A stretch of DNA of 53,104 bases from positions 1 to 53,104 of the IMG/VR virus record IMGVR_UViG_3300044991_002645, one strand, 5' to 3'. The notes beneath the pieces were generated by a model. That model was not told where the DNA came from, searched no databases, and saw nothing but the letters and a program-made list of their open reading frames with translations. This DNA comes from a virus. Both the position numbers and the translations under genes were made by a program. Shown in pieces: positions 9,437 through 51,843 of the stretch (its first letter is position 1; the number at the start of each line of letters is the position of its first letter).

Positions 9437-10396
9437 TCAATGACCTGTGCGCCAATCCATCGGGGTACCCTCGAAGGACACCTTGGTCACGCCAGCGACG
9501 TTGCCGATGGCGGAGCCTATGCACTCGTAGCCGAAGAACTCGAACATGAAGTCCTCGGTCTTCGTGCTGATGGTGACGTCGTCCAGAATGAAGAAGTCGC
9601 CGAAGTACTTGGGCTCGGCGAACGTGTACATCTGGTTGTCCGGCACGAGGTCGTGCTTGAGGGTGGTGTACCATTTGAGCCCCATGATCTGGCGCTCGGC
9701 GAAACCGTTGACGAACATGTCCTCGGCCAAGCTGCCACCGACCTCGTTCCAATCGAGTGCCGCGACGTCCCAGACGGTGACGTTGTTCACCAGGTTGACG
9801 GATGGGCTGAGATGGCGGTTGGAGGATGCCATGCCCTTCATGGAGTGGGCGAGGGCTGAGCGGCTAAGCGGCCCGACCGTCACCCATGGACAGCTGCCCA
9901 GGACCGTGGACGGGGTGTTGACCGCGCCGAGGACCGCGTTGCAGGAGTCCATGAAGGTGCTGTCTTCCTTGTCCATCAAATCTTTGACGAGGTAGTCGTT
10001 GAAGATCTGGCGGATGTCCATGTCGTAGGTCAGTAGGTTGTTCACATCCGCCGTGTAGCGGTACGTGGCCAAACGGTTGAACATGATTTTGTAACGGCCG
10101 GCGCGGATGTACGTGTCCTTCACCGTGGTGGCGAACGGGATCATGTAGGCCCCGGCGCTATTCGGCTCGACGTCCTTGATGATGACCGGTTTGGCGGTCG
10201 TCTCGGAGCGGTCGAAGTCGGACGGCGTGACTTTGATGGGCTTGAGGATGCGGCGCATGAAGCCGTCCTCGCGGAGACGCATGCGCATGAAGTCGTCGAC
10301 TCCCTCGCGGGCCTCTTTGCTCATCATGTTGTCGGAGGAGGTCAGCCCGTTGATGACGGACTCGTTAAGCATCTTGGTCTCTGGATCCAGTCTCAT
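9437..10396 (-). CDS. Probable major capsid protein
   Basis: 319 aa with a very strong ribosome binding site (AAGGAGG) for the ATG at 10396, fitting a highly expressed structural protein. An N-terminal helical arm (residues 1-45, NESVINGLTSSDNMMSKEAR) precedes a mixed alpha/beta body with a basic loop (RAGRYKIMFNRLATYRYTAD). The C-terminus (EDFMFEFFGYECIGSAIGNV) resembles the end of capsid proteins with the HK97 fold. The order protease, scaffold, cement, then this gene is the classical capsid order. It lacks the K-x-A leader of the putative internal proteins, as expected for a shell protein. The fold assignment is inferred. Confidence 0.75.
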   Translation of the reverse strand: MRLDPETKMLNESVINGLTSSDNMMSKEAREGVDDFMRMRLREDGFMRRILKPIKVTPSDFDRSETTAKPVIIKDVEPNSAGAYMIPFATTVKDTYIRAGRYKIMFNRLATYRYTADVNNLLTYDMDIRQIFNDYLVKDLMDKEDSTFMDSCNAVLGAVNTPSTVLGSCPWVTVGPLSRSALAHSMKGMASSNRHLSPSVNLVNNVTVWDVAALDWNEVGGSLAEDMFVNGFAERQIMGLKWYTTLKHDLVPDNQMYTFAEPKYFGDFFILDDVTISTKTEDFMFEFFGYECIGSAIGNVAGVTKVSFEGTPMDWRTGH

Positions 10397-11375: not shown

Positions 11376-12323
11376 TTAGCCGGCGGTTTGGGCGCGGCGC
11401 ATGAAGTCCTTGATGGCCCCGACGCGTTGGGCGGCCGCCATCTTCTCCTGCTCTGCGGCTCCTTGACCCTCTTGAGTCATCTGCTGGGACGCCGCGACGA
11501 TCTCCTCGGGGGACGCGCCGGCCTGAAGAAGCTGCTCGAGCTGCTGCGCGGCCTGCATGATCTCCTCGGAGGAGAGTCCCTGCTCGGCGAGGTATTTAGA
11601 GATCTGAAGCAATTGATCCCTCTGCTCGGGAGGCATTTGATCCAACATCTGGAGGATGCCTTGCTCCTCGGCCTCGGCCTTCTTCTGCAGCATGCCCTCG
11701 AAGTATTCCTCCGGCATGATGGACTCGGGGTCGAGGGACGCCGCCTTCTCCAAAATGGAGGCGGCCACCTTGGGATCATTGGTCACGCCAGCCTTGATAA
11801 GCTCATTGATGTCCTCCGCCTTCTTTTCGAGGCCCCTGAGGTATCCATGGGTGAACTCGTCGAATGACGCGCTGATGTTCTGAGCGAGGGCGGGGTTCTG
11901 CGCCGCAACCTTCTCGATCAAGGAGCTCTCCTTCTCGACGCCGGCCAGAGTCTGCAGGATCCGGTGGCCTAGACGTTGGGCGCGGGCATGGCTCGCAGCC
12001 TTCTGGACCTCTGGCTTGGAGCAGGCCATTGCGTTGACTTCAGTGGACAGGGTCGTGATAGTGGATCCCGGCATGACGCCAGCCTTGTACGCGCCCTTCT
12101 TGCCGCCCACCGCAGCGGGAACGCCTGTGTTCTTCTCCGCCGGGACGTTGTTGATGGCAGCCTCCGGGGTGCTGTCGCTCTCATTCTTGGAGAGGGCGGC
12201 GGCAGCCTTGTAGACTCCGTTGGCAAGCCTGTTGGCTCTCGTGTCCGCGGCGGCTTTCTCAATGCCGAACTTGCCGAGGAAACTGTTCATCGAATCGATC
12301 ACATCTTTGTAGGGACCAGCCAT
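11376..12323 (-). CDS. Scaffold or prohead core protein
   Basis: 315 aa from ATG 12323, chosen because GGAGG lies seven bases upstream; a longer GTG-start frame to 12353 has no such site. The protein is helical and Gln/Glu/Ala-rich, with coiled-coil-like segments (PPEQRDQLLQISKYLAEQGL, SSEEIMQAAQQLEQLLQAGA) at the C-terminus. It lies between the prohead protease and the capsid gene. Many hydrophobic-x-K-x-A sites occur (IEKAA, VQKAA, LEKKA, LEKAA, LQKKA), as expected if it is cut to pieces during maturation. No sequence family recognised. Confidence 0.65.
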   Translation of the reverse strand: MAGPYKDVIDSMNSFLGKFGIEKAAADTRANRLANGVYKAAAALSKNESDSTPEAAINNVPAEKNTGVPAAVGGKKGAYKAGVMPGSTITTLSTEVNAMACSKPEVQKAASHARAQRLGHRILQTLAGVEKESSLIEKVAAQNPALAQNISASFDEFTHGYLRGLEKKAEDINELIKAGVTNDPKVAASILEKAASLDPESIMPEEYFEGMLQKKAEAEEQGILQMLDQMPPEQRDQLLQISKYLAEQGLSSEEIMQAAQQLEQLLQAGASPEEIVAASQQMTQEGQGAAEQEKMAAAQRVGAIKDFMRRAQTAG

Positions 12324-12361
12324 TCTATGCCTCCATTCACTGTTTACGTTCACTTTCCATC

Positions 12362-13834
12362 TTAAATATACGCCGCGGTCCTAGCTGCCGCCAGCGAAAC
12401 CGCAGCCTCCGGCATGTCCGCCACAGCGGACACGACGTATTTCACATACTCCAACGCCAGATACCTGGCTTCAGGACTAGTCTGGAGTGAGGCCCTCTTT
12501 TGAATAAATATAACACCAACTCCAGAAGGTCGCCCCATTCCAGCTATCGGATTGGAAGCCAGACGGCGGGATACAACCCCGGGAAGCGCCGAGAACATGG
12601 GAGCCAAGGCGGATGCCACCACCCGGGCCAACCCCCCGGAACGACAGGCATCCCCGTCATAGGAGGAGTCGTCCAGGACTTCGGATGACAGTCCGGGGTC
12701 GTCGCAAACCTCCGACAACATCCCGGGCAACATGGATTGGGCCTCATCCTCGAAAGGTTCTATCTCCTCCCGGCTGGCCGCGGCCACCAGGCGTATGAAC
12801 ACCTTGAAGGGCAGCACGACTCCCGCGGAGGACAACTCCTTGAACAATCCCGAAGACTTAGTCTTGAACAGGTTGCACATGTCGTCGTCAGACAACTCGT
12901 CGGGACATCCGCAGCAGGGTCGGAAGGCGTCGAGGACGGCGTCCTCCCCCTCCGCCGAGGATAGGAACCGCTTCTCCATCCTCGACAGCTTGCCCAGCGC
13001 GGCCGACTTGCGTTGCGCGGCCGACTTGCCTATAGCTAAAAAAGAGGGAATGGTTTTAACCAATCCACACATCTCGGCCAATTCCGCTCCGCCCATGACC
13101 CGGGCGGACGCGACCTTCATCAAACCAAAAGCTATCTTGTCCGCGGGAATCACCACCCCGGAGATGTCATGGAACATAGGGGAATCGTTTATGGCCCCTA
13201 TCCTGTGACCCTCCTTGGTGAGGGTGCACATGGCCTCTTTGAGGTGGCTGCAGTAATCCTCCCTGCGGCTGGCCCTGTTGTGGCAGTAGCTGCACATGTC
13301 CGTGGGGACGTTCGCAGCCATGCTGAAGTAGACTGGTTTGTCATTGGCCAGCTTCTCCAACTCCCCCCTCCATTTATCCTCTTGGAGCCCCACAAGCAGT
13401 TCGCCGCGCTCCATCTCCTCATTGTACGCCTGCTTAACTATGTATCCGCTGGGCTTGCCTCCCTTCATGCTGTTGACGTGGTTCTTGTAGACGGCGGCCG
13501 TCTTCTCGAATGTTGGATGGTACTTTTTAAGACCCCCATCCAGGGCCACCACCCGGAGGCATCCCTTCCCCGGAGCAGCGCACTCATGCTCCACGGCCTC
13601 CTTGTTGAAGTAGTCCCCGTTATTGTTAGATCCATACATCTCCATGGAACCCAAAGAGATAAGGTGCATGTAGGAATGATCGGCCCTGCGTTCGAAGTCC
13701 AATCCGGCGAACATGCCGCCGGACGCCCGCTTCTCCAGCACCGTCCTGTCCAGGCCCCTACTCCCCACCCCTATCAAGGTGGCGGGAGGCATGCCGAAGT
13801 CGAAACTATCTGGAAATATGACTTTGGTCATCAT
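12362..13834 (-). CDS. Prohead maturation serine protease (assemblin-like)
   Basis: 490 aa. A candidate catalytic His119 (VYKNHVNS) and Ser171 (KPVYFSMAANVPTDMCSYC) are 52 residues apart, close to the His-Ser spacing in HK97/T4/herpes-type prohead proteases. After the serine comes a cysteine/histidine knuckle (C181, C184, C195, H197), seen in proteases of some large myophages. The N-terminal half has the expected region (SMEMYGSNNNGDYFNKEAVE). The C-terminal 250 residues are extra and end near LQTSPEARYLALEYV. Several K-x-A sites (LEKRA, FEKTA, IVKQA, IQKRA) could be self-cleavage points. The ATG overlaps the previous stop by four bases. Confidence 0.75.
   Translation of the reverse strand: MMTKVIFPDSFDFGMPPATLIGVGSRGLDRTVLEKRASGGMFAGLDFERRADHSYMHLISLGSMEMYGSNNNGDYFNKEAVEHECAAPGKGCLRVVALDGGLKKYHPTFEKTAAVYKNHVNSMKGGKPSGYIVKQAYNEEMERGELLVGLQEDKWRGELEKLANDKPVYFSMAANVPTDMCSYCHNRASRREDYCSHLKEAMCTLTKEGHRIGAINDSPMFHDISGVVIPADKIAFGLMKVASARVMGGAELAEMCGLVKTIPSFLAIGKSAAQRKSAALGKLSRMEKRFLSSAEGEDAVLDAFRPCCGCPDELSDDDMCNLFKTKSSGLFKELSSAGVVLPFKVFIRLVAAASREEIEPFEDEAQSMLPGMLSEVCDDPGLSSEVLDDSSYDGDACRSGGLARVVASALAPMFSALPGVVSRRLASNPIAGMGRPSGVGVIFIQKRASLQTSPEARYLALEYVKYVVSAVADMPEAAVSLAAARTAAYI
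12363..12370 (-). promoter_or_regulatory. TATATTTA promoter-like box before the scaffold gene
   Basis: The minus strand reads GGCGTATATTTAAG and overlaps the TAA stop of the protease gene, 40 bases before the scaffold ATG at 12323. Same core as the other boxes. Confidence 0.5.
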
Positions 13835-30758: not shown

Positions 30759-31109
30759 CTATCTTGAAAAAAAGTTGGGAAACGAATTGACGATGGCGCC
30801 AGTGGCCGCCCCCGCCATTCCTAATTTGAAGGGCGACGCACCCATGGCGAAACCGGCCGCCGCCCCGAACAAACCGCCTATGCCGCCGCCCACCGCCGCC
30901 CGACCCGCGAAACCCAGGACGTCGGAGAGTCCGAAACCCCCTGACGCGTCCGCCCGCTGCTCGAACGTGGGCCGGCCTGAGAACCCCCCGATGGGTATGG
31001 TCTTCATGCCGAGCACCGAGGAGTTCTCGTCCTCCAGCAGGCCGAAACCCGCCTCTTTGGCCATGTAGCCCGCGTTGAATCCGGCGGACCTCAGGGACTC
31101 AATCGTCAT
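30759..31109 (-). CDS. Glycine-zipper virion protein with full leader
   Basis: 116 aa from ATG 31109, which has GGAGG and overlaps the previous TGA. The leader is complete (SLRSAGFNAGYMAKEAGFG), one of the best matches to the shared motif. The C-terminal half is Gly/Ala zipper sequence (GGGIGGLFGAAAGFAMGASP) able to pack in membrane. Probably an internal virion protein that enters the host envelope; this is inferred from the motif. Confidence 0.6.
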   Translation of the reverse strand: MTIESLRSAGFNAGYMAKEAGFGLLEDENSSVLGMKTIPIGGFSGRPTFEQRADASGGFGLSDVLGFAGRAAVGGGIGGLFGAAAGFAMGASPFKLGMAGAATGAIVNSFPNFFSR

Positions 31110-38941: not shown

Positions 38942-39485
38942 CGGCCCCCGCCGCGGTCTTCCGCCAATCGTGGCCGCCCGAGACGGCCCATTGGGCCAGG
39001 ACCGACGCCAAAGCGCCCACCGCGGCCCCCGATCCGGCCCAGGCGGCCTGGCCGGCCCAATCCACCCCCGCCGGAACAGCGGTTTTTTCGGAGGTGGCTG
39101 TTTTAGACTTATTAGCAGCCACACTCTTGGCAGCAGCCACACTCTTGGCAGCAGCCTTATTGACTATGTCTTGTTTCAGCCTTTGGAGTCCTTCATGATT
39201 TGTGCCCGAACCATCGGGCATCCCTTTTAAGAGAATGGCTTCAAGAGTCTGTTTCTCAACGAACAGCTTCTTCAGGGCTGCTGTATCCTCTCCGCCAATA
39301 AGGGGTGCCGCCCTTTCGTATACGGACTGGAGGCCCTTATAAGCCTTGCGGAACTCCGCCGCATCCGCGTTTATCTTCTCCGTCGGGGTCTGGCCCCCGG
39401 GCCTGCCGCCCTGCATGACTTGATCCGGCATGGCGCGCTTCTCGAGATACCCGCCCATGAAACTGGTGGTGTAGAGATTATCCAT
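38886..39485 (-). CDS. Helical virion protein with full leader
   Basis: 199 aa with AAGGGGA before the ATG. The leader is LYTTSFMGGYLEKRAMPD (K16-R-A18). The middle is helical and charged (FRKAYKGLQSVYERAAPLIG), followed by a short Ala/Lys/Ser repeat (AAAKSVAAAKSVAANKS) and a hydrophobic C-terminus. The last residues (MGAGAAAVYNNRKALMG) are the same as in the 101-aa protein at 39589-39894, being encoded by the 87-bp repeat. Confidence 0.6.
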   Translation of the reverse strand: MDNLYTTSFMGGYLEKRAMPDQVMQGGRPGGQTPTEKINADAAEFRKAYKGLQSVYERAAPLIGGEDTAALKKLFVEKQTLEAILLKGMPDGSGTNHEGLQRLKQDIVNKAAAKSVAAAKSVAANKSKTATSEKTAVPAGVDWAGQAAWAGSGAAVGALASVLAQWAVSGGHDWRKTAAGAVMGAGAAAVYNNRKALMG

Positions 39486-39644: not shown

Positions 39645-39894
39645 TCCCCGCTTGGCCTTTGGTGGACTCCCTGTTCTTGAGCGGGCCCTCCGAATTGGTC
39701 GGGGCCACCGTCTCGCGGCGGACGGTCATGTCGGGGACTCCGTCGGCTTTCGAGTCGACCTCCTTGGTGGACCTGTTGGCCACCGAGGCGGCCGGGTGCT
39801 CGTTGCCGACCGGGTTGCCGGGCTGGCCGTTGTTGATCAGGTCGGCGCGCTTCTCGAAATACCCGTTGAGGAATCCGTCTCTGTACAGGCTCAT
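39589..39894 (-). CDS. Small cargo protein with full leader
   Basis: 101 aa from ATG 39894 (AGGAG upstream). The leader is MSLYRDGFLNGYFEKRADLI (K15-R-A17). The remainder is polar and probably disordered (VANRSTKEVDSKADGVPDMT) before the repeated C-terminus MGAGAAAVYNNRKALMG. The short body suggests a reduced version of the 199-aa neighbour. Confidence 0.6.
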   Translation of the reverse strand: MSLYRDGFLNGYFEKRADLINNGQPGNPVGNEHPAASVANRSTKEVDSKADGVPDMTVRRETVAPTNSEGPLKNRESTKGQAGIMGAGAAAVYNNRKALMG

Positions 39895-39896
39895 GT

Positions 39897-40481
39897 CTAT
39901 CTCCTGGATTGCTGGCGTTGCGTGTCGGCGCTGGCCGCGCCGGAGGGGGTTCCAGCTCCGATCGAGCCCAGCCAACCTTGTATGGCCCCGCTGGCCTTGT
40001 TGCCGGCGTTGGATATGTCGGCCCTCGCTTTGGCAGACGCGGTGTTGACTTTGTCGGTCAGCTGCCGGGCCAGGGTGTCCCCCTTGATCCTGGGCAGGGC
40101 TTCGGCGCCCGCCTCGAGCGTGGCGTTGGCCACCTGCCCGCCGGAGCGGATCAATTGCTTGTTTATCTCGGTGCCCTTGTTCAGGTAGTTGGTCAGGAAA
40201 TTGCTGATCAGCGGCGCGTTGTGGCTCACGGCGGTGTCGACGGCGGGGGCCAGGTTGTCGGCGGCCGTGTTGACCAACTCGATCTGCGGCATGGCTGTGT
40301 TGACCAGATCCATGGCGTTGCGGTCGGCCGTGGTTGTCAAGTCCTTGCCCAGGCCCTCGGCCTTGCGCGCGACGTTCATGGACGTCCGCTCCCAGGGTGT
40401 GGGGACCGCCTGCTCCTCGTCGACGTCGGCCGCGCTCTTGTGCAGGTAACCCTCCATGAATCCAACTTTGTACGTTCCCAT
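39897..40481 (-). CDS. Helical cargo protein with full leader
   Basis: 194 aa from ATG 40481 (AAAGGAG upstream). The leader is MGTYKVGFMEGYLHKSAADV (K15-S-A17). The rest is helical and amphipathic, with repeated NTA/AxN patterns (MDLVNTAMPQIELVNTAADN, LTDKVNTASAKARADISNAG) like apolipoprotein-type lipid-binding or coiled-coil helices. No family recognised. Confidence 0.6.
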   Translation of the reverse strand: MGTYKVGFMEGYLHKSAADVDEEQAVPTPWERTSMNVARKAEGLGKDLTTTADRNAMDLVNTAMPQIELVNTAADNLAPAVDTAVSHNAPLISNFLTNYLNKGTEINKQLIRSGGQVANATLEAGAEALPRIKGDTLARQLTDKVNTASAKARADISNAGNKASGAIQGWLGSIGAGTPSGAASADTQRQQSRR

Positions 40482-40494: not shown

Positions 40495-41328
40495 TTATTT
40501 GCCTTTAGTCCGATACTCGTTCCATAGTTTAGAAACCTTGGCGCCGGCCTGGCCGGCCAGGTTGTAGGCTCCTTCAGTGACCGACCACGCCTGGCCAAGG
40601 GGTTTGCCCGAGGCCACCGAGTGGGCGTACGCGAACACCGGCGACCGCCTGGCCGTTGTGTCGGCCGCGGCGAGCGCCACCTCCTTGACCGCCCTGCCCG
40701 CGCCGCCGTCAAGCCAGCCGCGCAGCTTGTCGAGCGGGCGCTCCCGCTTGTCCTGCGCGAGGGCCCTGTACGCGGACTCGACCGCGTTCAACGCGGAATA
40801 GCCTTGGGCCTCCCACGCCCTCCTGGGGTCGTGCACCGTGGCCAGCGCCGCCCGGAACGGATGCGAGAAACCCCCAAGCGCCTGGCTGGCCTGGCCCGCC
40901 GCCCTTATGTATGACGGATACGACAGTTCGCCCTTGACGTCGGGGGTCAGCCTGTCGTGGTACACGTTCCAGGCCGTCTCGCCCGTGAGCTCTCCCGAGA
41001 AGGGGGTGGTGGTGGAGGTCACCCCGTCGGCTATGCCCTGCAACCCCCACACCACGGGCGAAACCCTCGCGCCCAGCTTGGCAGCGGCCCACGCGTCGAC
41101 CGCGGTGGCCGCCAGCGGGGTCAGCGCGTTCTGCGCCTCTTTCTCCTTGGCGGCGGCCAGCGCGACGGACTCCGCCGAGGCCATGGCTGCGCCGGCCGCG
41201 TCCGCCTCGGTGCGCGCCGCGGGCAGTCCGCCTATGCGTTTGGCCGCGTCGGCCTCGACCCGGCCGGCCGGCGTGTCGGCCGCCGATTTGAGCAGGTATC
41301 CCGCCATGTAGCCCGCAGCGTACATCAT
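40495..41328 (-). CDS. Alanine-rich cargo protein with full leader
   Basis: 277 aa with AAGGAGG before two adjacent ATGs. The leader is MMYAAGYMAGYLLKSAADT (K14-S-A16). A long Ala/Glu helix follows, then a more globular region (PFSGELTGETAWNVYHDRLT, AWEAQGYSALNAVESAYRAL) and a C-terminal helix (WSVTEGAYNLAGQAGAKVSK). A TATATTA box lies 35 bases upstream. No family recognised. Confidence 0.6.
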   Translation of the reverse strand: MMYAAGYMAGYLLKSAADTPAGRVEADAAKRIGGLPAARTEADAAGAAMASAESVALAAAKEKEAQNALTPLAATAVDAWAAAKLGARVSPVVWGLQGIADGVTSTTTPFSGELTGETAWNVYHDRLTPDVKGELSYPSYIRAAGQASQALGGFSHPFRAALATVHDPRRAWEAQGYSALNAVESAYRALAQDKRERPLDKLRGWLDGGAGRAVKEVALAAADTTARRSPVFAYAHSVASGKPLGQAWSVTEGAYNLAGQAGAKVSKLWNEYRTKGK

Positions 41329-41381: not shown

Positions 41382-41694
41382 TCATTCCCCGGAGTTCGAG
41401 TCGCAATCCGGCTCCGCCCGCTTGACCAGCGCTTTGGCCATCATGGCCAGCGTGAGGTTCCTCTTGTCCATGGCGGACGCGGGCATGGACCCCCCGAAGT
41501 GGTTTTGCGCTCCAATGGCCAGATCAACCATGTCCAGCTCGTCCAACCCCTGCGAGGCCGGCGGCTTGCCTGGTTTGAGGGCGCCCAGGCCGGCCTCCCC
41601 GGCGTGGCGCGCCAGCGCCTAGTTCAACTTCGTTTGACGTCTCTCGATAGTCGGTCCAACCTCTAGCCCGGTCCGGTACAAGCCGCACGGTCAC
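41382..41694 (-). pseudogene. Small gene with apparent one-base frameshift
   Basis: Translation likely starts at GTG 41694, overlapping the previous TGA as GTGA (TVRLVPDRARGWTDYRETSN and on). That frame runs into low-complexity basic sequence and stops at 41524. A different frame from 41618 to TGA 41382 reads protein-like (LARHAGEAGLGALKPGKPPA, LDMVDLAIGAQNHFGGSMPA) and ends MMAKALVKRAEPDCDSNSGE, with a K-R-A site. Dropping one G at 41618-41619 joins NEVEL to ALARHAG. An intact gene would encode about 104 residues; a shorter product from the internal ATG is also possible. Confidence 0.45.
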
Positions 41695-43160
41695 TCCCGC
41701 TCGGTCGATCCAGCTGCTATGGAGGCGGGTGCGCCGACGCCGCCCACCACGTAAGGCAGCGTGCGTGACAGCAGTCCGGACAGCGTCCGCCTGTCCTCCG
41801 GCGTGGACGTCGCTAGATCCGGATAGATGTGGTGCAGGCCGTAGCCTAGCGCCGCGGCCTGCGGATCCACTTCGGTCACAGCCGCCGCCTCGTCGAGTTT
41901 GCCATCCAGGATGGGCCGGTAGGACTCGGCTAGCCGCTGCGCGGGGGTCTTGGCGTAATCCTCCGCCCCGGCCGCCATTCCGCGCTCGAAAGCCTTGACG
42001 TCCCTGCCGTCCCATGTCGGTCTGACGGGCACGGGCGCTGGCGCCTTAATCCCCTGGAAAGTCACTCCGCCGGCCGGGTTGTTGGCCAGCGAGGCCTTCA
42101 TCCCGGACAGCACGGGCAGCAGCTCCGCGCCGATGCCGTACCCACCCTTATCCGCGATGAACTTCTGCATTTCGTCGAACGCGCCGCCGACTGGCGGGGG
42201 CGACCGCAAATCGAACGCGGCCAGCGGATGTTCGCCCGGCACGGCCGTCCTCGGGGCCCTGCTGACGGCGGCGTGCGCTACCTCGTGCGCCAGGGAGTTT
42301 GGATCCCCGACGCCGTTCAATCCAACCCCCTCGCTCATTTTGTAGGAGCCGTCCGGATTGGGAACTACGCTGCGCAGCGAAATTTTCGCAGGTTGGCCCG
42401 GAACTGGCGCCATGGTAACGCCGGTCCACCCGGCCATCGGGTGGCCGGCCAGCGACGCCTCGTCGGTGTCTGTGAGCCGGTATGATCGGAATGGCACGCC
42501 GTCGCTAAAGTTCCGACCGTCCGCTCGATTGTCCTGCTTACCGCTGTCGCCTGGCGACCGCTTGTACGGACCTATGGGTTGGTTGGACTCCAGCCAAGCG
42601 GCGTCCTCCGGACTCAGCCTAGATCTGTTGTCCTCTACGGACTTCACGTAATCCTCGCCGTGTATTCCTTTAACGAACCTGTCTCGCTGGTTGTAAGAGC
42701 CCTCGATGGCCGAGGGGATGTGCAATCTTCTTGTGTAGGCTCCCTCGCCCGCCGCGAGCTGATCGGTAGTCAACTGCACCGTGGGCTCATAGTTTCCGAG
42801 CCGGTAGCCTTCCGCGGCCACGGCCGGTCTAAGCTGGCTCGGCTTGAACGGCCAGTTGGTCATCGGCTGATCGTAGCCTATAGGACTCGAAGGGAGCAAC
42901 GCCGAGTATACGCCGTCGCCGCCTGGAAATCTATCGGCGGCCGTGCGCATAGCCCCGGACTCCAGCCCGGGCGACGGTTTGGTGGTGTCCGACTTGACCG
43001 CCCATATCTCATCCGAGATGGTCTTCGGATCTTTAACCGTATCGGTGGTGCCCCCAGGCTTCTCGATCGGAACCGTTTTCTTTTTGCCGAGAAGACCGGA
43101 CCACAAAGCCGCCTCTTTGCTCAAGTACCCCGTCTGATGGCCTAACGCGCGCATGTCCAT
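41691..43160 (-). CDS. HExxH metallopeptidase-like cargo protein with leader
   Basis: 489 aa from ATG 43160 (AAAGGTGA upstream). The leader is MDMRALGHQTGYLSKEAALW (K15-E-A17). After a polar N-terminal region comes a zinc-peptidase motif NSLAHEVAHAAVSRAP (HEVAH at about 292-296). The motif is followed by FDEMQKFIADKGGYGIGAEL and then helical sequence with FERGMAAGAEDYAKTPAQRL. It would be a zinc hydrolase acting on host or virion protein after ejection; substrate unknown. It is one of five HExxH proteins in this block. Confidence 0.6.
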   Translation of the reverse strand: MDMRALGHQTGYLSKEAALWSGLLGKKKTVPIEKPGGTTDTVKDPKTISDEIWAVKSDTTKPSPGLESGAMRTAADRFPGGDGVYSALLPSSPIGYDQPMTNWPFKPSQLRPAVAAEGYRLGNYEPTVQLTTDQLAAGEGAYTRRLHIPSAIEGSYNQRDRFVKGIHGEDYVKSVEDNRSRLSPEDAAWLESNQPIGPYKRSPGDSGKQDNRADGRNFSDGVPFRSYRLTDTDEASLAGHPMAGWTGVTMAPVPGQPAKISLRSVVPNPDGSYKMSEGVGLNGVGDPNSLAHEVAHAAVSRAPRTAVPGEHPLAAFDLRSPPPVGGAFDEMQKFIADKGGYGIGAELLPVLSGMKASLANNPAGGVTFQGIKAPAPVPVRPTWDGRDVKAFERGMAAGAEDYAKTPAQRLAESYRPILDGKLDEAAAVTEVDPQAAALGYGLHHIYPDLATSTPEDRRTLSGLLSRTLPYVVGGVGAPASIAAGSTERE

Positions 43161-43221: not shown

Positions 43222-43998
43222 TCAGTCCGCAGCCGCCGGCTGCTGGTCCTTAGTCCAAAAAGCGCCTCCGAGATTGGCCAGTCCTTGAATGGCCTGCGGA
43301 TTCAACATATCCCAGGCGCCGGCGGCGGCGCCCTTGGCCGCGGAGCCAACTACGCTGGTCCCGGAGCCGTCCAGGCTGTCGGTGGCCGCGGCGGAGCCCC
43401 ACGGCGCGTTGTCCATCAGGTTGTGGCCGGTCTGCTGGGCGTAGCCTTGGACTCTGTCCACCCACGAGTCCGAGTTCATAAGTTGGCCGTTCTCGTCCTC
43501 CAAAGTCTTGTTCCACTTCGCTGCGGCCGAGGCCGCGTCGAGATCGGCTCCGGCGTATGGGTTCCAGCTGGCTTTCACCGCCTGGCCCAGGCCGCGCACA
43601 GCCGTAGTGCCCAGCTCCGCGGCGAGCAGCGGCGGCGCGGCGTACGCCCACGGCGCCCAGGCCGTCGGATTTACCGCAGCCAGCTGGTGAGCGTGGGCTA
43701 TCCACGGGGCCACCCTGCCGGACTGCTCCAGCATCTGCCCGCCCATGTCGGCCGCCATAGCTCCGAGACCCAACGGCGCCGACGGCACGTATCCGCCGGC
43801 CGCGTTCTGCTCCACCGGCATGTTGCCGTCATCCAGGAACGAGAAGAATGGATTGTCCAGGCCAAAGGTCAGCTTGGGCCCCAGGTTGGAGGCCTGCCTA
43901 TTCCTGTTGGCGAGGGCGGACCTGGCCTGGACCGGGTTCATGGGGCCGGCCGCCTCCTTGCCGTAGCCGTGTAGAAAACCTTGCTCGTAGAGTGTCAT
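43222..43998 (-). CDS. Cargo protein with leader, unknown
   Basis: 258 aa. The leader is MTLYEQGFLHGYGKEAAGP (K14-E-A16). The body is Ala/Gly/Pro/Trp-containing (SGRVAPWIAHAHQLAAVNPT, AWAPWAYAAPPLLAAELGTT, AAAKWNKTLEDENGQLMNSD), with moderately hydrophobic stretches but no clear span. GAGGGA is 10 bases before the ATG. No family recognised. Confidence 0.55.
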   Translation of the reverse strand: MTLYEQGFLHGYGKEAAGPMNPVQARSALANRNRQASNLGPKLTFGLDNPFFSFLDDGNMPVEQNAAGGYVPSAPLGLGAMAADMGGQMLEQSGRVAPWIAHAHQLAAVNPTAWAPWAYAAPPLLAAELGTTAVRGLGQAVKASWNPYAGADLDAASAAAKWNKTLEDENGQLMNSDSWVDRVQGYAQQTGHNLMDNAPWGSAAATDSLDGSGTSVVGSAAKGAAAGAWDMLNPQAIQGLANLGGAFWTKDQQPAAAD

Positions 43999-44071: not shown

Positions 44072-44896
44072 TTAGCATTGGCCTGATCGATGGCGAAGCT
44101 CTTCAAGAGCTCCCCCGTCGACTCGCTGTGGACCCCGCACTCCCATACGCGCGTAACCCAGCAAACCCAGCGCGGCCGCGCCGCCGGCCCCACCTACAAG
44201 GGCCCCCTTGGTGTCGCCGGCCTCCGTGAAGGGCATGCCGCCCATGGCGAGCCCCGCGGCCGCCGACACGCCCTTATCTTTGACCGATGCCTGCTTGCCC
44301 ATGTATCCGGCCCTGAATCCGATTCCGCGCGCCTGCTTGTCCATAGTGGTCTCCAGTTGTTTTATGTATTGCGGCGGCACGACGCCCCCCTTGACCATCA
44401 CCCTCGGATGCCTGACGCCCGTGAGCAGCGGGACGCCTTTGGCCCTGTTCGCCCTGACGCGCCTGGCCATGATGGCTGGCGCGGCCATGTTGGCCTCGTC
44501 CATTATCAGTCCGGCCCTGCGCAGGCCCTCGACGTCCACCTCCAGCGGCACCCTGTCCGAGAACGGCCAGCCGTTCCGCTCCAATATGCCGGGGGCCCTG
44601 GCGGCCTGGGCCGGACTGAAGCCGTAGAACCAGTCGCCGCCGGAGTCGGCCAGCGTGTCGCCGCGGATGGCCTTCAAGGCCAGGATGGCCCTGTCGGCGG
44701 CCGGGGCGTCCGGCGGCAGGTCCCCGGCCAGCCCGTCGTACCGCGCCTGGTGCTCCGGGCGCAGCTTGAGCTGCTTGAGGTACCTGGCCAGGTTGGCGGC
44801 GCCCTCGGGGCGGCCTTTGGCGTGCAGGGCCTGGGCGGTCATCAACCCCTCGGCCAGTATGCCGGGCAAGGCCTCCCTGGGCGCGTGGTGTATCAT
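44072..44896 (-). CDS. ART-like N-terminal domain, then internal leader and glycine zipper
   Basis: 274 aa in the intact frame. Residues 1-20 (MIHHAPREALPGILAEGLMT) resemble the opening of ADP-ribosyltransferase-fold proteins, in which H-x-x-x..L..I..EGL forms the NAD pocket edge. VPLEVDVEGLRRAGL and VRHPRVMVKGGVVPPQYIKQ complete a 180-residue domain. Then comes a complete internal leader (GIGFRAGYMGKQASVKD, 191-207) and a Gly/Ala zipper. The last residues in this frame (GGALEELRHRSGQC) look wrong. A one-base shift at the G5 run 44112-44116 would instead read GELLKSFAIDQANAKKLDEG and end at 44011. The ART call is tentative. Confidence 0.5.
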   Translation of the reverse strand: MIHHAPREALPGILAEGLMTAQALHAKGRPEGAANLARYLKQLKLRPEHQARYDGLAGDLPPDAPAADRAILALKAIRGDTLADSGGDWFYGFSPAQAARAPGILERNGWPFSDRVPLEVDVEGLRRAGLIMDEANMAAPAIMARRVRANRAKGVPLLTGVRHPRVMVKGGVVPPQYIKQLETTMDKQARGIGFRAGYMGKQASVKDKGVSAAAGLAMGGMPFTEAGDTKGALVGGAGGAAALGLLGYARMGVRGPQRVDGGALEELRHRSGQC

Positions 44897-44903: not shown

Positions 44904-45542
44904 TCAGTTCCGGGGAGCCGACGCCACCTGCCATCCGGCGGACGGGGCCGCGGGCAGGTTGAGGGGCGGATTGGCGGAGGGGGCGGCCGGCTGGTTGTTC
45001 CGATCCGTCCATTTGGGCACGTCGGCCAACTTCAATTTGCCGTTCAGCACCTGTTGGCGGATGTTTTTCCTCGATGCGTCCATGGCGGCCGGGCTCATCC
45101 GGCCCGCGTTGATCCGGGACCACTCCTTGAGGGCTGCGTCGGTCCCTCCGGTGGACCCCACTTTGATTCCCACCTCCCCGGCGCTGCCGTCGGCGTTGGC
45201 CACCCGGCGCTTGTCCCCGGCCCGCGTGTGCGCGGCGTTGTCGTGTATGAGGGCGGGGTCTCCGGCGGGCTCCATGGACAATGGAGTCTGGGGGAGGGGC
45301 TCGTTGCCCGGCGTGTACGGGCTGAGGGTCTCCCCTGGTTTCGGGGATGGGTTGACGCGCTCCCTGTCCTGGAGGTTCAGACTCCCCGACGTGGAGTCGG
45401 CGCGCAGGCCGGGGGCGGCGGGGCTGGCCGCGGGCCGGGCCGACTCCGACCAGGCCTGCGACGGTTTGGCCGGATCCCTCAATTCGTCGCCGGCCTCTTT
45501 GCGGAGGTAGCCCTGCCTGAATCCAATGGTCAGCATGTTCAT
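44904..45542 (-). CDS. Cargo protein with leader, disordered body
   Basis: 212 aa from ATG 45542, with a GGGGG-type site. The leader is MNMLTIGFRQGYLRKEAGDE (K15-E-A17). The following 100 residues are Pro/Ser/Ala-rich. A small globular helical segment is visible (GTDAALKEWSRINAGRMSPA, MDASRKNIRQQVLNGKLKLA). No family recognised. Confidence 0.55.
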   Translation of the reverse strand: MNMLTIGFRQGYLRKEAGDELRDPAKPSQAWSESARPAASPAAPGLRADSTSGSLNLQDRERVNPSPKPGETLSPYTPGNEPLPQTPLSMEPAGDPALIHDNAAHTRAGDKRRVANADGSAGEVGIKVGSTGGTDAALKEWSRINAGRMSPAAMDASRKNIRQQVLNGKLKLADVPKWTDRNNQPAAPSANPPLNLPAAPSAGWQVASAPRN

Positions 45543-45544
45543 GG

Positions 45545-45898
45545 TCACACCCCCTGCGAAGGCTGCGCCGGGCCCTTGGCCGCGGGTTTGGCGGCCGTGG
45601 CGAACTGCCCGGCCAGCTCCTTGCACTGCGTTATCTCGGCGTCCAGCTGCACTTTCTGCTGCTCGAGCTGGGTGACCTTCTGCTGGACCTGCATCAACTG
45701 ATCGGGCGTCAGGGCCGGGGTGGCCTGCGGCTGCTGGGCGGTGGGCTCGGGCCCATTGGTCATCCCTGCGGCTGTCTGCTCGGCGGGGGCCGCCTGCTGC
45801 AGCAGGCCCGACGTGGGCAGCTGGGGCTGCTGGGGCTGCTCGCCCTCCGCTCGCTTTTCGAGGTATCCTCTCATGAAACCTGTGGTGTACAAACTCAT
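45545..45898 (-). CDS. Small coiled-coil cargo protein with full leader
   Basis: 117 aa with AAAGGAG before the ATG. The leader MSLYTTGFMRGYLEKRAEGE (K15-R-A17) is followed by a Gln/Pro/Ala linker and a coiled coil (DQLMQVQQKVTQLEQQKVQL). A TTATATTA box lies 44 bases upstream. Function unknown. Confidence 0.65.
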   Translation of the reverse strand: MSLYTTGFMRGYLEKRAEGEQPQQPQLPTSGLLQQAAPAEQTAAGMTNGPEPTAQQPQATPALTPDQLMQVQQKVTQLEQQKVQLDAEITQCKELAGQFATAAKPAAKGPAQPSQGV

Positions 45899-46119: not shown

Positions 46120-47913
46120 TCATCGTTTATCCGCCATTAAATAGCCCGTTCCAGCCCCGATGGCCGCGCCGCCGGCGGCCCCCATCCCGGCGCCTTGCCA
46201 TCCATATGTCAGATATCCCAGCCCGCCTCCCGCGGCCAACCCGGCCAACGCCCCGAGCAAGACGGGGCGGGACAAGGATCCCAGGGCGGCATCCGCCGCT
46301 TTGGTCGAGATTCCCTGCTCCGCCACCCCGGTCCGCGCCGGCTGCTCCTCCCGCGTCGTCGGCGGCTCACTCCCTGCCAATGGGCCATCCGGATACGGGG
46401 CGGCATCCGCCGCTTTGGTCGAGATTCCCTGCTCCGCCACCCCGGTCCGCGCCGGCTGCTCCTCCCGCGTCGTCGGCGGCTCACTCCCTGCCAATGGGCC
46501 ATCCGGATACGGGGCGGCCTCTCCGGCGGGCTCGGGCGCCATCATCTCCGCCAAAGACCCGTTCCCCTGGCCGGAGTAGGCGTCCACATACGAGGCGAGC
46601 ATGACTGGAAGCGACGCGGCCGCTGCCGATGGATACACCACACCCGCCCTCAGCATCAACCTGCCGTCGGGGCTCCTCAAAGTGGTCGACGTGGCGTGGC
46701 GCGCCATGCGCCCCATGGTCCCCAGGACGAGGCCCCAATCCTTTTTTGTCCAATCGAACAAGCGGGCGTCGAGGTTCATCAAATTCGGATGGGCAGCGGC
46801 GGCCGCCTCCCCGGACTCGCCTAGGATTTTGATCTGGCCCTTGCCTAGGTCGAACCCGTACCTCTCCGGGCCCTTGGACGCCACCTGGGGTTTGGGCCCC
46901 GGCTCGGCGTGATTCACGCCCTTCCGCAGTCCCATGATAAAGTCGGTGGCCCACTTCCTGGGGCCCGCGGCGGCCTTCTCCACGCCCCCGGGACCCCCGT
47001 TCGAGGCCAGCGTGAAGTCCCAGGCGGCCTTCAAAGGCTCGTCCCACATCTCGCCCATGTAGGCGTCGTCCATGGCCTCGGGATCCCTGCCGTAGAAGGT
47101 CCGCCAGGCCCCCCTCGCCCCGGTGGAGCGGGCCAGCGCCATGCGGGCCTTGTGGGCGTCCGCCGACTCGCCCGGCCGCGGCCGGCGCGCCAGCATGTCC
47201 CTCAACCGCGTCATCGAGGCCTTGTGACCCTTGGCCGAGGGATCAGCCTCCCAGTCCACCCCCATCAGCCTGCCCGACGTCTTCAGGGCCGACATGGTGG
47301 CCGCCAGCTCGCCGGGGACTCCCGTTCCCTCGTCGAACCCGTGGCGCAGGCTGTAGGCCTTGCGCGCCCGGAGCAGGTCGGCCCCGCGGCCCGGGTTGGC
47401 TCCCGGCCGCAGCGCGTCCGGCCCTCTGGGGGCGCCCCGACCCCCCGCCGACGCCTTGCGTGGATTCCCCAGCGCGTGGGCCAGCTCGTGGAGGAGGGTC
47501 TCCCTGTCCCCCCAATACCCCGGCGAGATGGTCACGCCGTCCTCGCCCACGTGGTAGCCCCCCTTGACCTTGGGGCGGTTGGCCCCCTCGGCCATCACGA
47601 TGGGGGCGTCCAGCCTGGCCGGGTCCTGGACAACGCCGTAGTCCGCGGCCAGCTGGCCGAACACCGTGCCCCCGGCGTCCGAGCGCGCCTTCAGCACGGC
47701 CCGCTCCACGTCGGCGAAATTCTGGCCGGTGCCGAAATCGTCCAGGGCCTTTTGGATGTGCGCCCTGGGCGTGGTGGTGAATTTGTAGTCCCCGAAATGG
47801 CCCCTGGCCGGATAGTCCGGGACCACCTGGGGGCCCCCTCCCCCCAGCGTAGACTCTTTGGCCTGCTTGCCCAGCCCGAACGCGTATCTTTTTTTTATCT
47901 CCTCGGTCGTCAT
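46120..47913 (-). CDS. HExxH metallopeptidase-like protein with leader and C-terminal glycine zipper
   Basis: 597 aa from ATG 47913. The leader EEIKKRYAFGLGKQAKES (K16-Q-A18) opens the protein. A peptidase-like domain follows with GDRETLLHELAHALGNPRKA (HELAH at 142-146). A second K-x-A region (GVEKAAAGPRKWATDFIMGL) begins another domain near residue 395. Then come two perfect 38-residue repeats, each ending GVAEQGISTKAAD, and a terminal zipper (GLGYLTYGWQGAGMGAAGGA). The product may be cut into several virion proteins. The zipper suggests membrane delivery. Confidence 0.6.
   Translation of the reverse strand: MTTEEIKKRYAFGLGKQAKESTLGGGGPQVVPDYPARGHFGDYKFTTTPRAHIQKALDDFGTGQNFADVERAVLKARSDAGGTVFGQLAADYGVVQDPARLDAPIVMAEGANRPKVKGGYHVGEDGVTISPGYWGDRETLLHELAHALGNPRKASAGGRGAPRGPDALRPGANPGRGADLLRARKAYSLRHGFDEGTGVPGELAATMSALKTSGRLMGVDWEADPSAKGHKASMTRLRDMLARRPRPGESADAHKARMALARSTGARGAWRTFYGRDPEAMDDAYMGEMWDEPLKAAWDFTLASNGGPGGVEKAAAGPRKWATDFIMGLRKGVNHAEPGPKPQVASKGPERYGFDLGKGQIKILGESGEAAAAAHPNLMNLDARLFDWTKKDWGLVLGTMGRMARHATSTTLRSPDGRLMLRAGVVYPSAAAASLPVMLASYVDAYSGQGNGSLAEMMAPEPAGEAAPYPDGPLAGSEPPTTREEQPARTGVAEQGISTKAADAAPYPDGPLAGSEPPTTREEQPARTGVAEQGISTKAADAALGSLSRPVLLGALAGLAAGGGLGYLTYGWQGAGMGAAGGAAIGAGTGYLMADKR
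46284..46511. repeat. Perfect 2 x 114-bp tandem repeat
   Basis: Copies 46284-46397 and 46398-46511 are identical by eye and keep the reading frame (38 residues each, Pro/Glu/Thr-rich, ending in STKAAD). Identity at third codon positions indicates a recent duplication. Confidence 0.9.
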
Positions 47914-47933: not shown

Positions 47934-50135
47934 TCAAGCCGGAAACCCTGATCTGCCCTGCCGCCGGGCGGAGGCCACGGCGGCCCCCTCCCCTGGCGTC
48001 AGCGTGCTCATTCCTATCAGCATGCCCGCCATGGCGCCCACCAGCGCGCCCGCCATCACGCCGCCCATCCGGGCCGCGGCGTGAGTCGCGGGGCCCGAAC
48101 CCTCCGCCAGGGCACCGCCCGCCCAGCCCCCGGCGAGGGCTCCGGCGAAGCCTGTGCCTAGCGGCAGGTAGGCGAGCTTGCGCCGTATTCCAGGCGAGGC
48201 CTCCTCCGGGTGGATCGCCAGCCGGCCGAACTGCTTCTCCGCGCTGGCCGCCGCCTTCAGCAGACACGCGCCCCCGCTCCTGGCCGGGCGGCCGGCCTGC
48301 TTGCCCAGGTAGCCGGCCTCGAAGCCCGCCTGCTTGCCTATCTGGCCGCCGGGGCCCGCGTCCACAAGGGCCGGGGCCAGCCGCCTGTACTGGTCCAGCA
48401 GCCACGACTCCTTGTCAGGCCTGCTTTTATACAGGCGCAGATAGCGCATGGCCCTCTTCGCCTCGGTGTCCATGCCAGAATCCCGCAGCTGGCCCTCGAA
48501 AGCGTCGTCCGTCACATCCGGGCCGTAGGGGGGCAGCCGCAGCCTGAGCGCGTCGCGGCTCAGGGGCCGGTCCTGGCCGGACGAGTCGTCAAGCAGCCGG
48601 GACCCCTTCGCGCCGTAGGACCACGCGTTCAGCGCCTGGACGGCCGGCTCCAGCTCCATGGGGTTGGTGTACGGGTAGGCGTCCGCCTTGTCCGGATCGG
48701 ACGACATGTCCTCGACTATCCGGCCGCTTTTGCCTGTGGCGGCCGGCCGGGACTCGCTCCTGGCTCCCACATCATCCTTGTACTCCTGGCCGTTGCGACC
48801 CACAGTGTACTTGTGCGTGAACTCGTGCCGCAGCAGCTTCAGCCAGTCGGTGCCGTCGCCGGGGCGGACCCCGTTGGTCGTCAGGGCGGCATCGGCCCGC
48901 TGCCTGTACTCGTCGGCGTCCCCGAACGGGGATATGCCCAGCCTCGGATCCATTCCGCGCCCCAAAATCAGCGACCCGCCGCCGTTGCCGCCGGTCAGTG
49001 CCCAGCCCGTCCTGCCGCCCGGCTCGTACCTGAACGTGAAGGGCTCCTTGAACGCGTCGAGGTTGAACGGAATCCCCGCCCGCTCGGCGTAGCCCTTGGC
49101 CCGGGACCGCTCCCTCTCCGCCGCCTCCCCGTACGTCCCGGACAGGAAAAGGCGGGCGGGATCCTGGACCACGTACTTCTCGTGGTAGTCCGGGGAGCGC
49201 GTCTCAATAGGGGGCCGGGGCGCGCCCCGCTCGGGGAACTCCCTCTCGATGGCGCCGGAGGCCGCCAGCGCGTCAAGCGCGCTGGCGGACCCCTCCATGT
49301 CCCTGAGCATGGCGGCCTCGTGCTCCCGCTCCCTCTCGTCCGAGCCGACCGAGCCGCTGGCTGATTTCGCCATGTATCCCGACTTGAATCCGATCTCGTA
49401 CGCTTGCTTGCTCATAGACTTCTCGTGTGTTGACTCCGCTTGGGAGTTCTGTTTAGTGATGCCCGTCGTGAGCGGGACGAACTTGCGCTTGGCCGGGGCC
49501 GGCTTGACGACAGGCTCGGCCACCTGCTTCGGCGCGGGCTTCGCCGGAGTCCTGTCCGGAACCTTGGACTCGTCTATTATGGTCTGCCGCGGCCGCTGGT
49601 TGTCGAACCACAGCTGGTCGACCACCTCCGCATTGTCGCCGTCCTCTATCATGTTGGCCACCACGCCGGCGCGGGCCGGCCCGACCTGCTTGGCGTATAG
49701 GCTGTCGGACGCCTCTGCTCCGGCGGCCTCGAAGTCCCCCGCCTCCAGCGCGTCCCTCATGTCGGTGAACGTGGCGAGCCGTTTCGGCCCCATGTTGTAC
49801 AGCATGTTCTTCAGACCGGCCTCGCGCGTGGAGTCCAGTTCGACGCCCGGGAGCAGTTTGGCCACCTCTTTAGCGCCGGAGTCGTAGACGGCCACGGCCT
49901 CGTCGGCGTGGTCCATCAGCGAGCCGGACTTGGGCGCCGCCCCGCCTGTGAGTCCGAACGGCTGCGTCCACACCTTGCCGACGGGATCCCAGGTCGGTTT
50001 CCAGCCCTTAGCCGACGACTTGTCCTCGGCGTAGCCCTCCTGCTTGAGCAGAGTGTGGGCGCCGACGGACGGCGCGTCGGCGGCCTGTTTCAGCAGGCCC
50101 ATCGCGTAGCTTCTTTTTATCTCTTCGGCGGTCAT
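47934..50135 (-). CDS. Three-module polyprotein: GH24-type lysozyme, HExxH peptidase, glycine zipper
   Basis: 733 aa with GAGG before the ATG. Module 1: leader AMGLLKQAADAP (K16-Q-A18), then a T4-type lysozyme-like domain with candidate catalytic Glu33 (LLKQEGY), WDPVGKVWTQPFGLTG, and the core LKNMLYNMGPKRLATFTDMR followed by SDSLYAKQVGPARAGVVANM. Module 2: leader AYEIGFKSGYMAKSASG (245-261), then a peptidase-like domain with LLRHEFTHKYTVGRNG (HEFTH 437-441) and a possible third ligand in NPMELEP. Module 3: leader KQAGFEAGYLGKQAGRP (601-617), then Gly/Ala membrane segments. Each leader sits at a domain border, as if to allow separate packaging or cleavage. Confidence 0.7.
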   Translation of the reverse strand: MTAEEIKRSYAMGLLKQAADAPSVGAHTLLKQEGYAEDKSSAKGWKPTWDPVGKVWTQPFGLTGGAAPKSGSLMDHADEAVAVYDSGAKEVAKLLPGVELDSTREAGLKNMLYNMGPKRLATFTDMRDALEAGDFEAAGAEASDSLYAKQVGPARAGVVANMIEDGDNAEVVDQLWFDNQRPRQTIIDESKVPDRTPAKPAPKQVAEPVVKPAPAKRKFVPLTTGITKQNSQAESTHEKSMSKQAYEIGFKSGYMAKSASGSVGSDEREREHEAAMLRDMEGSASALDALAASGAIEREFPERGAPRPPIETRSPDYHEKYVVQDPARLFLSGTYGEAAERERSRAKGYAERAGIPFNLDAFKEPFTFRYEPGGRTGWALTGGNGGGSLILGRGMDPRLGISPFGDADEYRQRADAALTTNGVRPGDGTDWLKLLRHEFTHKYTVGRNGQEYKDDVGARSESRPAATGKSGRIVEDMSSDPDKADAYPYTNPMELEPAVQALNAWSYGAKGSRLLDDSSGQDRPLSRDALRLRLPPYGPDVTDDAFEGQLRDSGMDTEAKRAMRYLRLYKSRPDKESWLLDQYRRLAPALVDAGPGGQIGKQAGFEAGYLGKQAGRPARSGGACLLKAAASAEKQFGRLAIHPEEASPGIRRKLAYLPLGTGFAGALAGGWAGGALAEGSGPATHAAARMGGVMAGALVGAMAGMLIGMSTLTPGEGAAVASARRQGRSGFPA

Positions 50136-50196: not shown

Positions 50197-51843
50197 TCAA
50201 ACCACCACCTTGGCCCAGTCGTTGGCGGCTCCTCTTCCGGCCAGGACCCCGGGGGCGATCCTGCGCAGCGTCTCGTCGTACCACTTCTGCCTGGCCGGGT
50301 CCTTGTCGTAGTTGCGGCGGTACCTTATGGCCCTGGCCTCCTCGTCGGTCAGCCCGTCCTCGTCGAGCATCTTCTGCAGCGCGTCGTCGTCGGGGGCGGC
50401 GAAGTATCTGCCCAGGGCGCCTTGGTACTCCTCCGGCGTCATCTGCCTGTTGTCGCCTTTGTCGTCCACTCCCCAGGCCCCCTTGCCGGTGGCCCTGGTC
50501 AGCCCCCTGTTGAGCGCTCCGGCGGCCGGCGTCCACTCCAGAGGTACCTGCTCAACGTAGCTGAGCGGACGGCCGGAGGCGTCAGGAGGCCGAAAGGCGT
50601 CGGGGACGCCTCCCGCGTCGGTCATCGCCGGAACGGTCTTGGCGTGGCTGACCTCGTGGCCCAGCACGTCCACTCCGCTGCGCATCCACGTGTCCGCGGC
50701 CTCCTCCGGCGCGGTTGGCCCGCCGGCCCCCACGGGAATCCCGAGTGACTGCAGCGTCCTCCTGGGGCTCAAGCCGTTTCTCAAAGGATTGACGCTCCAC
50801 TCGTCGTAGTTGTGTATGACGCTCGGGGCTCCTCCGCCCAGGATGTTGGCCTGGTCGCCTATGGTCACCACTCCTGTGCGCCCGTCGTAGTTGGGGCCCG
50901 ACCCGGGGACCCCGTCCGGAGCGACCGAGACTCGGGTCGGCTTGTTGTAGTCGGCCATCCTGTACGGGAATCCGTTCGCCTCGTTGTACTTGTCCGCCGC
51001 CTTGATCCTGTTCTGCGTGTCCGCGCCCCACGTCCTGCGCAGTAGCGCGTCGGCCGGGCTCGGCATCACCCAGCTGGACTGCTCCGGATTTCCTGGGGCG
51101 GAGCCCGGGCTGGCGGCGGAGCTGGAGGCCAGGTCGGCTCCCTTGGAGCCTGGCGCGGCCGGCTCTGCCTGGCCGGACAGCTGGAAGTTCCGCATCAGAC
51201 GCTCGCCGCCCGCGGCCGCCTTCCGCTCCATCTTGGCCGCCGTGGCGGCCTCCCGGGACGCCTTCTCCTCGGGAGCCTCCTCCGGGGCTTTGCCTATCAG
51301 CGAGTCCAGTCCCCCCGGCCCGAACGGCCCGGCCTCCTTGGCCAGGTAGCCCGCCCTGTACCCCGCCTGCTTGGCCATGTCCGCGGCGGGCGCGGCCTGC
51401 GGCGCAGGCTGTGACGCGGGCATGACCCCGTACTTGTCCCTGTAGGCCAGGGCCTCCTCGGGCGTTATCGGGCTGCCCGCCGCCTCGAAGGCCCGCTGTA
51501 TCTTCTCGGGCTTCGCGATGTTGCTGCCGCCCTTCAGGTAGTCCACGCTGAACGGCACGCCGCGCGCCTTGAACATCTTGCCGAACTGGTCCCTGCGCCA
51601 CAGGAACTCCCGGATCTTGCCGTCGGCTCCGATGACCTTGCGGTCAGGGTCCTTCAGCTTGGCCGCGGCCAGCATCTGCAGCGCGAACATGCAGTCCTGC
51701 AGCTCGCCGTCAAGCTCCTTTGAATCGTCGCCGGCGAGGGCCTGGTGGAACTCGTCCAGCTCGCCCTTCAGGTAGTCGGGGCCGTAGTCGCGGTCGCCCA
51801 GCAGCTGTTTTTTTATGTAGCCGTACTTGTAGCCTGGCATCAT
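50197..51843 (-). CDS. MazG-like domain, internal leader, then HExxH peptidase-like domain
   Basis: 548 aa. The N-terminus has a degenerate leader (YKYGYIKKQLLGD). Residues 24-60 show the MazG pattern E-x-x-E, then E-x-x-D (E28, E31, E47, D50; GELDEFHQAL and ELDGELQDCMFALQMLA), typical of all-alpha NTP pyrophosphohydrolases. A complete internal leader (MAKQAGYRAGYLAKEAGPFG, 156-175) precedes a second domain with GVDVLGHEVSHAKTVP (HEVSH 397-401). Its C-terminus (RAIRYRRNYDKDPARQKWYD, TLRRIAPGVL) matches that of module 2 in the 733-aa protein, so the peptidase domains are paralogous. Confidence 0.6.
   Translation of the reverse strand: MMPGYKYGYIKKQLLGDRDYGPDYLKGELDEFHQALAGDDSKELDGELQDCMFALQMLAAAKLKDPDRKVIGADGKIREFLWRRDQFGKMFKARGVPFSVDYLKGGSNIAKPEKIQRAFEAAGSPITPEEALAYRDKYGVMPASQPAPQAAPAADMAKQAGYRAGYLAKEAGPFGPGGLDSLIGKAPEEAPEEKASREAATAAKMERKAAAGGERLMRNFQLSGQAEPAAPGSKGADLASSSAASPGSAPGNPEQSSWVMPSPADALLRRTWGADTQNRIKAADKYNEANGFPYRMADYNKPTRVSVAPDGVPGSGPNYDGRTGVVTIGDQANILGGGAPSVIHNYDEWSVNPLRNGLSPRRTLQSLGIPVGAGGPTAPEEAADTWMRSGVDVLGHEVSHAKTVPAMTDAGGVPDAFRPPDASGRPLSYVEQVPLEWTPAAGALNRGLTRATGKGAWGVDDKGDNRQMTPEEYQGALGRYFAAPDDDALQKMLDEDGLTDEEARAIRYRRNYDKDPARQKWYDETLRRIAPGVLAGRGAANDWAKVVV

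Follow-up and report, generated by a model that had tools for sequence, protein, structure and literature searches.

Our analysis of a viral window of 53,104 bases, one whole IMG/VR record, indicated that a 733-aa protein (47934..50135, minus strand) is a candidate cargo polyprotein, in which a short leader peptide precedes each of a lysozyme-like, an HExxH and a glycine-zipper module, in that order. We consider it probable that these leaders are T4 CTS-like propeptides, that the genes behind them were fused in frame, and that the head protease cuts the modules apart. The new element, in our judgement, is a T4-type targeting and prohead-protease system with leaders repeated inside fused cargo proteins. 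The novelty of this K-x-A leader arrangement is provisional: a literature search that left subscription journals mostly outside its reach turned up no publication on prohead processing at K-x-A or on phage head polyproteins.

Leaders and modules of the 733-aa protein

The open reading frame was confirmed, with an ATG start preceded by a Shine-Dalgarno-like GAGG. Its leaders, one N-terminal and two internal, occupy residues 1-18, 241-259 and 599-614, and all end in K-x-A. Leader 1 (50082..50135 (-); MTAEEIKRSYAMGLLKQA) ends in LLKQA and shares its wording with the adjoining gene at 46120-47913 (MTTEEIKKRYAFGLGKQA) rather than having the full GF..GY form. Leader 2 (49359..49415 (-); MSKQAYEIGFKSGYMAKSA) keeps its ATG with a weak ribosome site, and leader 3 (48294..48341 (-); IGKQAGFEAGYLGKQA) has ATA in place of the ATG of the other copies. 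The earlier note had described three complete leaders in this protein; the recurrence held, and the word "complete" was slightly overstated, because leader 1 is a short variant.

Module 1 (49416..50081 (-); residues 19-240) is T4-lysozyme-like, with phmmer matches to phage lysozyme (E 7.6e-4) and the gp5 lysozyme domain (E 8.8e-4) that span only about residues 100-165, the catalytic Glu/Asp/Thr being placed by eye, and a match to the endolysin family phrog_7 (E 0.014). Module 2 (48342..49358 (-); residues 260-598) carries HExxH at residues 437-441 and is homologous to residues 172-548 of a neighbouring 548-aa protein, a paralogue in which both HExxH and E494, a possible third zinc ligand, are kept. 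This homology (E 7e-18; aligned positions 8-337 of 339 and 21-367 of 377) covers 330 of the 339 residues of the 733-aa module, starting just past one leader and stopping just before the next, and on the 548-aa side it ends near the C terminus of the protein. The claim that the leaders lie at module borders is thereby borne out. Module 3 (47937..48293 (-); residues 615-733) is glycine-zipper-like, with a match (E 6e-4) to the glycine-zipper region that closes the 46120-47913 protein. Pfam returned no family for modules 1 and 2, and the AlphaFold model of the 733-aa protein, built on two sequences with a mean pLDDT of 37, was uninformative on the module folds. No homologue of the whole protein was found in viral contigs, GenBank phages or the 42 relative genomes.

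Leader-bearing genes elsewhere in the window

The internal placement that the earlier note had also seen in two other proteins was confirmed. The 548-aa protein (50197..51843 (-)) consists of an N-terminal module, an internal leader (51331-51378; residues 156-171, MAKQAGYRAGYLAKEA) and an HExxH module that runs to the C terminus, and its own N terminus shows only a degenerate leader (GYKYGYIKKQL). The 274-aa protein (44072..44896 (-)) is without an N-terminal leader and carries an internal one (44288-44344; residues 185-203, MDKQARGIGFRAGYMGKQA), with ATG and GGAG kept, followed by a glycine-rich end. Its pre-leader N-terminal module, like the one ahead of the internal leader at L254:7534-8586 (-), appears ADP-ribosyltransferase-like by eye (HY/HH...GL), and no family match was obtained for either.

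Leader and metallopeptidase-like module also occur as a gene of their own, in a 496-aa HExxH protein (41691..43160 (-)) with a single N-terminal leader at 43110-43160. The adjoining HExxH and glycine-zipper protein (46120..47913 (-)) begins with a short leader of the 733 type (47860-47913); it is 597 aa long, and some analyses ran on a version three residues shorter. The similarity of both proteins to module 2 of the 733-aa protein is weak. Within the 597-aa gene, 46284-46511 is a perfect 114-bp tandem duplication.

Further N-terminal leaders, all on the minus strand, were found on genes for proteins of 117 aa (45848..45898; MSLYTTGFMRGYLEKRA), 258 aa (43951..43998; MTLYEQGFLHGYGKEA), 277 aa (41281..41328; MMYAAGYMAGYLLKSA) and 199 aa (39432..39485; MDNLYTTSFMGGYLEKRA), and at 45492..45542 (MNMLTIGFRQGYLRKEA), 40431..40481 (MGTYKVGFMEGYLHKSA), 39844..39894 (MSLYRDGFLNGYFEKRA) and 31050..31109 (MTIESLRSAGFNAGYMAKEA). 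An identical 87-nt repeat ends two adjacent leader-bearing genes (38855-38941 and 39558-39644), which suggests a recent duplication.

Recurrence beyond chance

The internal leaders of the window did not show in a mixed profile of all N-terminal K-x-A sites, which was too diluted, and we therefore used a leader-only profile, built solely from the N-terminal leaders of ten other genes and run over all six frames. The training leaders ranked on top, followed by four internal copies (two in the 733-aa protein and one each in the 548-aa and 274-aa proteins), which scored 20.5-26.8 against a maximum of 19.6 over 200 shuffled proteomes. The short N-terminal peptide is common to about ten otherwise different genes, and the motif is confined to head and cargo genes. 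On mechanically called open reading frames, [LIMVYF]xKxA occurred 61 times in these genes versus 24.1 expected and not once in the tail-side genes of the window, and 16 of the 28 head and cargo genes had a hydrophobic-x-K-x-A within the first 45 aa, versus 2.2 expected. The relatives G001, G002, G004, G005, G013 and G018 likewise concentrate the motif in the head region.

Recombination could in principle have copied a short DNA sequence around the cargo region and left it functionless at internal places, and two DNA features fit this: leader 3 of the 733-aa protein and the 548-aa leader share a 62-nt stretch at 77% identity, and a 32-nt element has seven copies in the 36-53 kb region. We regard such a by-product as very improbable, however, since the peptide is conserved although DNA identity is 67-84%, the copies sit at module borders, and the same arrangement appears elsewhere in unrelated wordings.

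Fused and separate modules in relatives

The leader wording differs from phage to phage, and internal copies in each phage's own wording were found in five further phages. In G002 the N-terminal wording is MNNSYxxGYxxGYLxKxA, and a 367-aa protein has MNIKQKGYLEGYTQKEA inside; for G010 the N-terminal leader is MDQKLAFELGRRLGLHKKA and the internal one, in a protein of 492 aa, is MDPKTAFDVGAKLGMVKRA; for G004 they are MGHLKDALIRKTA and, in a protein of 459 aa, MGLLTEALIRKTA; for G013 they are MNRLEKAAAFGxMMGKxA and, in a protein of 572 aa, TNKLEKAAEFGSAMGKQA; and G014 has the internal leader MNRLEKAAAFGAMMGKRA in a protein of 351 aa. G012 is identical to G013 in this stretch. In the G013 protein an extra C-terminal module (DUF6321) comes after K-x-A sites, and in the near relatives G014 and G015 this module is a leader-bearing gene of its own, an instance, for a module other than those of the 733-aa protein, of the separate genes that the earlier note had proposed to look for in related phages.

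A 940-aa multi-enzyme chain of G004 (L181:7747-10566 (-)) has hydrophobic-x-K-x-A sites between its domains and is likely to be a cargo polyprotein. Its domains include one that is 2'-5' RNA ligase-like (2H phosphoesterase, with a weak match to the anti-CBASS protein Acb1), one that is inorganic pyrophosphatase-like (E 4.5e-49) and a kinase/phosphatase-like region.

The internal copies seem to range from fresh fusions to old ones, the leader peptide outlasting the start signal. Both ATG and a plausible Shine-Dalgarno sequence (GGAG) are kept at the internal copies of the 274-aa protein, G002, G004 (first copy) and G014. ATG is kept in the 548-aa and G010 copies, where the ribosome site is almost nil (-2.0 and -2.2 kcal/mol, as against -4 to -12 kcal/mol at real starts in the window). 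The start codon itself has become ATA in leader 3 of the 733-aa protein, GTC in the third G004 copy and ACG in G013, where the 18 upstream nucleotides, GGAG included, are identical to those that precede the start of a separate gene and the former ribosome-binding site is now translated as part of the frame.

These features bear on a reading in which the internal leaders are translation starts of nested in-frame genes, with ribosomes restarting there and the long form not proteolysed. Methionine precedes three of the four internal leaders of the window, and the ATG and ribosome site of the fresh fusions lie at plausible spacing, so internal initiation could contribute there. As an account of the whole series this reading is unlikely, given the three replaced start codons and the persistence of the 548-aa and G010 leaders on near-absent ribosome sites. 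That the leader is kept though the start signal is lost argues for selection on the peptide, and a leader that is a mere translation-start artefact was rejected on the same ground. The proposal that separate genes were fused in frame agrees with these data, in that leader and homology borders coincide, start codons were lost while leaders were kept, and the DUF6321 module occurs both fused and separate; as judged from the sequences, in-frame gene fusion behind the internal leaders is well supported.

Head genes and the predicted K-x-A cleavage site

The candidate protease is a 490-aa protein (12362..13834 (-)) with a K-x-A of its own at residues 35-37. In 34 homologues K35, H119 and S171 are invariant and A37 is conserved in at least 90%; H119 and S171 are the putative catalytic His and Ser. 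Order in the structural model begins at about residue 41, directly past K-x-A. Structure comparison placed T4 gp21 (5jbl) best, with Z 8.6 and an rmsd of 3.0 A over 124 residues; the HSV-2, KSHV and HCMV proteases ranked next. Models in the viral library (BFVD) that are named prohead protease matched at E about 1e-5, and a plain Foldseek search of the model against the PDB gave no significant match. Homologues are annotated as prohead protease (Rhodococcus phage E3) or capsid maturation protease (Gordonia phages), and by its model the 490-aa protein would be a prohead protease of the gp21/herpesvirus fold.

The protease gene adjoins those for scaffold and capsid (9437-13834), in the same order as in G001, G002, D69 and Arash. 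The product of 11376..12353 (-), with several K-x-A sites, is scaffold-like, a putative role suggested by its position and relatives. The major capsid protein (9437..10396 (-); phrog_2522, E 2.5e-6) has K-x-A at residues 27-29, and the motif occupies the same position near the N terminus in 46 of 49 distinct sequences (the script counted 44, and L044 and L069, which it missed, were read by eye), against a shuffle expectation of 9%; the letters that flank it vary among relatives. Relatives of the capsid protein occur in Salmonella phage Arash, Vibrio phages D69, D181 and D148 and Bacillus phage G, those of Arash and D69 carrying the same motif. Further relatives come from more than 80 viral contigs, many of them 160-220 kb long, and the window is therefore likely to be one part of a longer phage genome.

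The capsid proteins of the more distant Mycobacterium phage Myrna (L208) and Rhodococcus phage E3 (L209) also have K-L-A near residue 45, and the K-x-A site may thus be more widely spread. Bacillus phage G has a capsid protein without K-x-A, yet its protease gp19 has one. No published N-terminal data on the capsid proteins of Bacillus phage G, Myrna or E3 were found in the literature searched.

Among the other genes of the window, the portal matched phrog_2739 (E 6e-4), and 5508-7235 (-) encodes a collagen-repeat, tail-fibre-like protein (Pfam E 1.3e-34). A 2387-aa chain (21896-29059 (-)) unites beta and beta' parts of RNA polymerase (Pfam Rpb2_6 and Rpb1_2) and has two intein-like insertions that hold LAGLIDADG endonucleases, and a C-terminal part of beta' lies at 18192-20078; the chain is probably a virion RNA polymerase.

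K-x-A is common to the capsid protein, the scaffold and the protease, and from its conservation it is most simply read as the cleavage motif of the prohead protease, with the leaders as capsid-targeting propeptides, for which T4 and SPN3US offer a precedent (PMC5694885, PMC3012670). Cleavage that separates the modules again is strongly suggested by this shared motif together with the protease fold. The internal leaders might instead target or anchor the precursor through several contacts with the scaffold core and stay uncut, so that the virion holds full-length fusions. The leaders are predicted to be helical, at low confidence, several copies would also be favoured by targeting alone, and most SPN3US head proteins are not cut (PMC10052503). 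Two observations speak against uncut anchors and make them improbable: the conserved core is K-x-A itself, as in capsid protein, scaffold and protease, with varying wording around it, and a second K-x-A lies just upstream of eight of the nine internal leaders as counted by script (about 3 expected), the upstream K-x-A of the ninth straddling the boundary of the script.

Proposed maturation and its significance

In the maturation pathway that we propose, the leader would be a short helix-forming peptide that carries head-internal cargo into the prohead, and its hydrophobic-x-K-x-A end would be cut by the prohead protease that the phage itself encodes. The 733-aa protein would represent three leader-plus-module units joined in frame (lysozyme-like, HExxH metallopeptidase-like and glycine zipper). 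As the head matures, a protease cut behind every K-x-A would trim off the leaders and free the modules, and cuts at both flanks of the internal leaders may occur, because these have the second K-x-A just upstream. The predicted products, residues 19-245 (24.2 kDa), 260-603 (37.8 kDa) and 615-733 (11.5 kDa), are close to the fragments of about 230, 355 and 120 residues that the earlier note had expected. That the leader-bearing proteins lie in the head is inferred, as are their targeting to the capsid, the precise bond that is cut, the cuts themselves and the ejection of modules into the host.

In-frame fusions would be separated again during maturation because the cargo proteins begin with a cleavable K-x-A leader. 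There is about an even chance that this holds more generally in a large group of tailed phages, mostly of 160-220 kb, such that the protease tolerates fusion and cargo drifts freely between single genes and polyproteins, the longest being the 940-aa chain of G004. With one module fused in one phage and separate in its near relatives, the system would exemplify how proteolysis can make gene fusion tolerable, the fossil ribosome-binding site being a trace of the fusion. The leader would furthermore serve as a sequence signature of head-packaged, probably ejected, proteins in mostly uncultured phages, and effectors as yet unknown could therefore be listed from sequence alone. The predicted K-x-A specificity of the prohead protease is not reported in the literature that we found.

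Comparison with known systems

There is a close likeness to the CTS of T4 (IPI-III and Alt) and its protease gp21: in both cases a short N-terminal peptide is carried by otherwise unrelated proteins, which are head-internal in T4 and presumably so here, and ends in a cut site, a predicted one in the window, and a gp21-like protease gene lies beside the scaffold and capsid genes. The T4 cleavage motif is (L/I)-x-E, whereas the leaders of the window end in K-x-A, recur inside proteins at module borders and have a phage-specific wording. Published prohead cut sites of giant phages and T4 end in E (PMC5694885, PMC10052503). SPN3US and phiKZ (gp245) resemble the present system in that a protease trims N-terminal propeptides from many of their head and ejection proteins, with several cut sites in one propeptide, and they differ in having an A-x-E type of site and long propeptides (124-127 aa in the examples given); chains of leader-module-leader-module are not reported in the passages considered (PMC5694885, PMC10052503).

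By structure comparison, the protease of the window belongs to the same fold class as herpesvirus assemblin. Assemblin cuts after Ala, which resembles the Ala proposed here for the P1 position, but it cuts scaffold and itself, without cargo leaders. The polyproteins of animal viruses likewise combine several modules in one open reading frame with protease sites in between; in the window, by contrast, most cargo is still encoded by single genes, and the sites would be retained capsid-targeting leaders.
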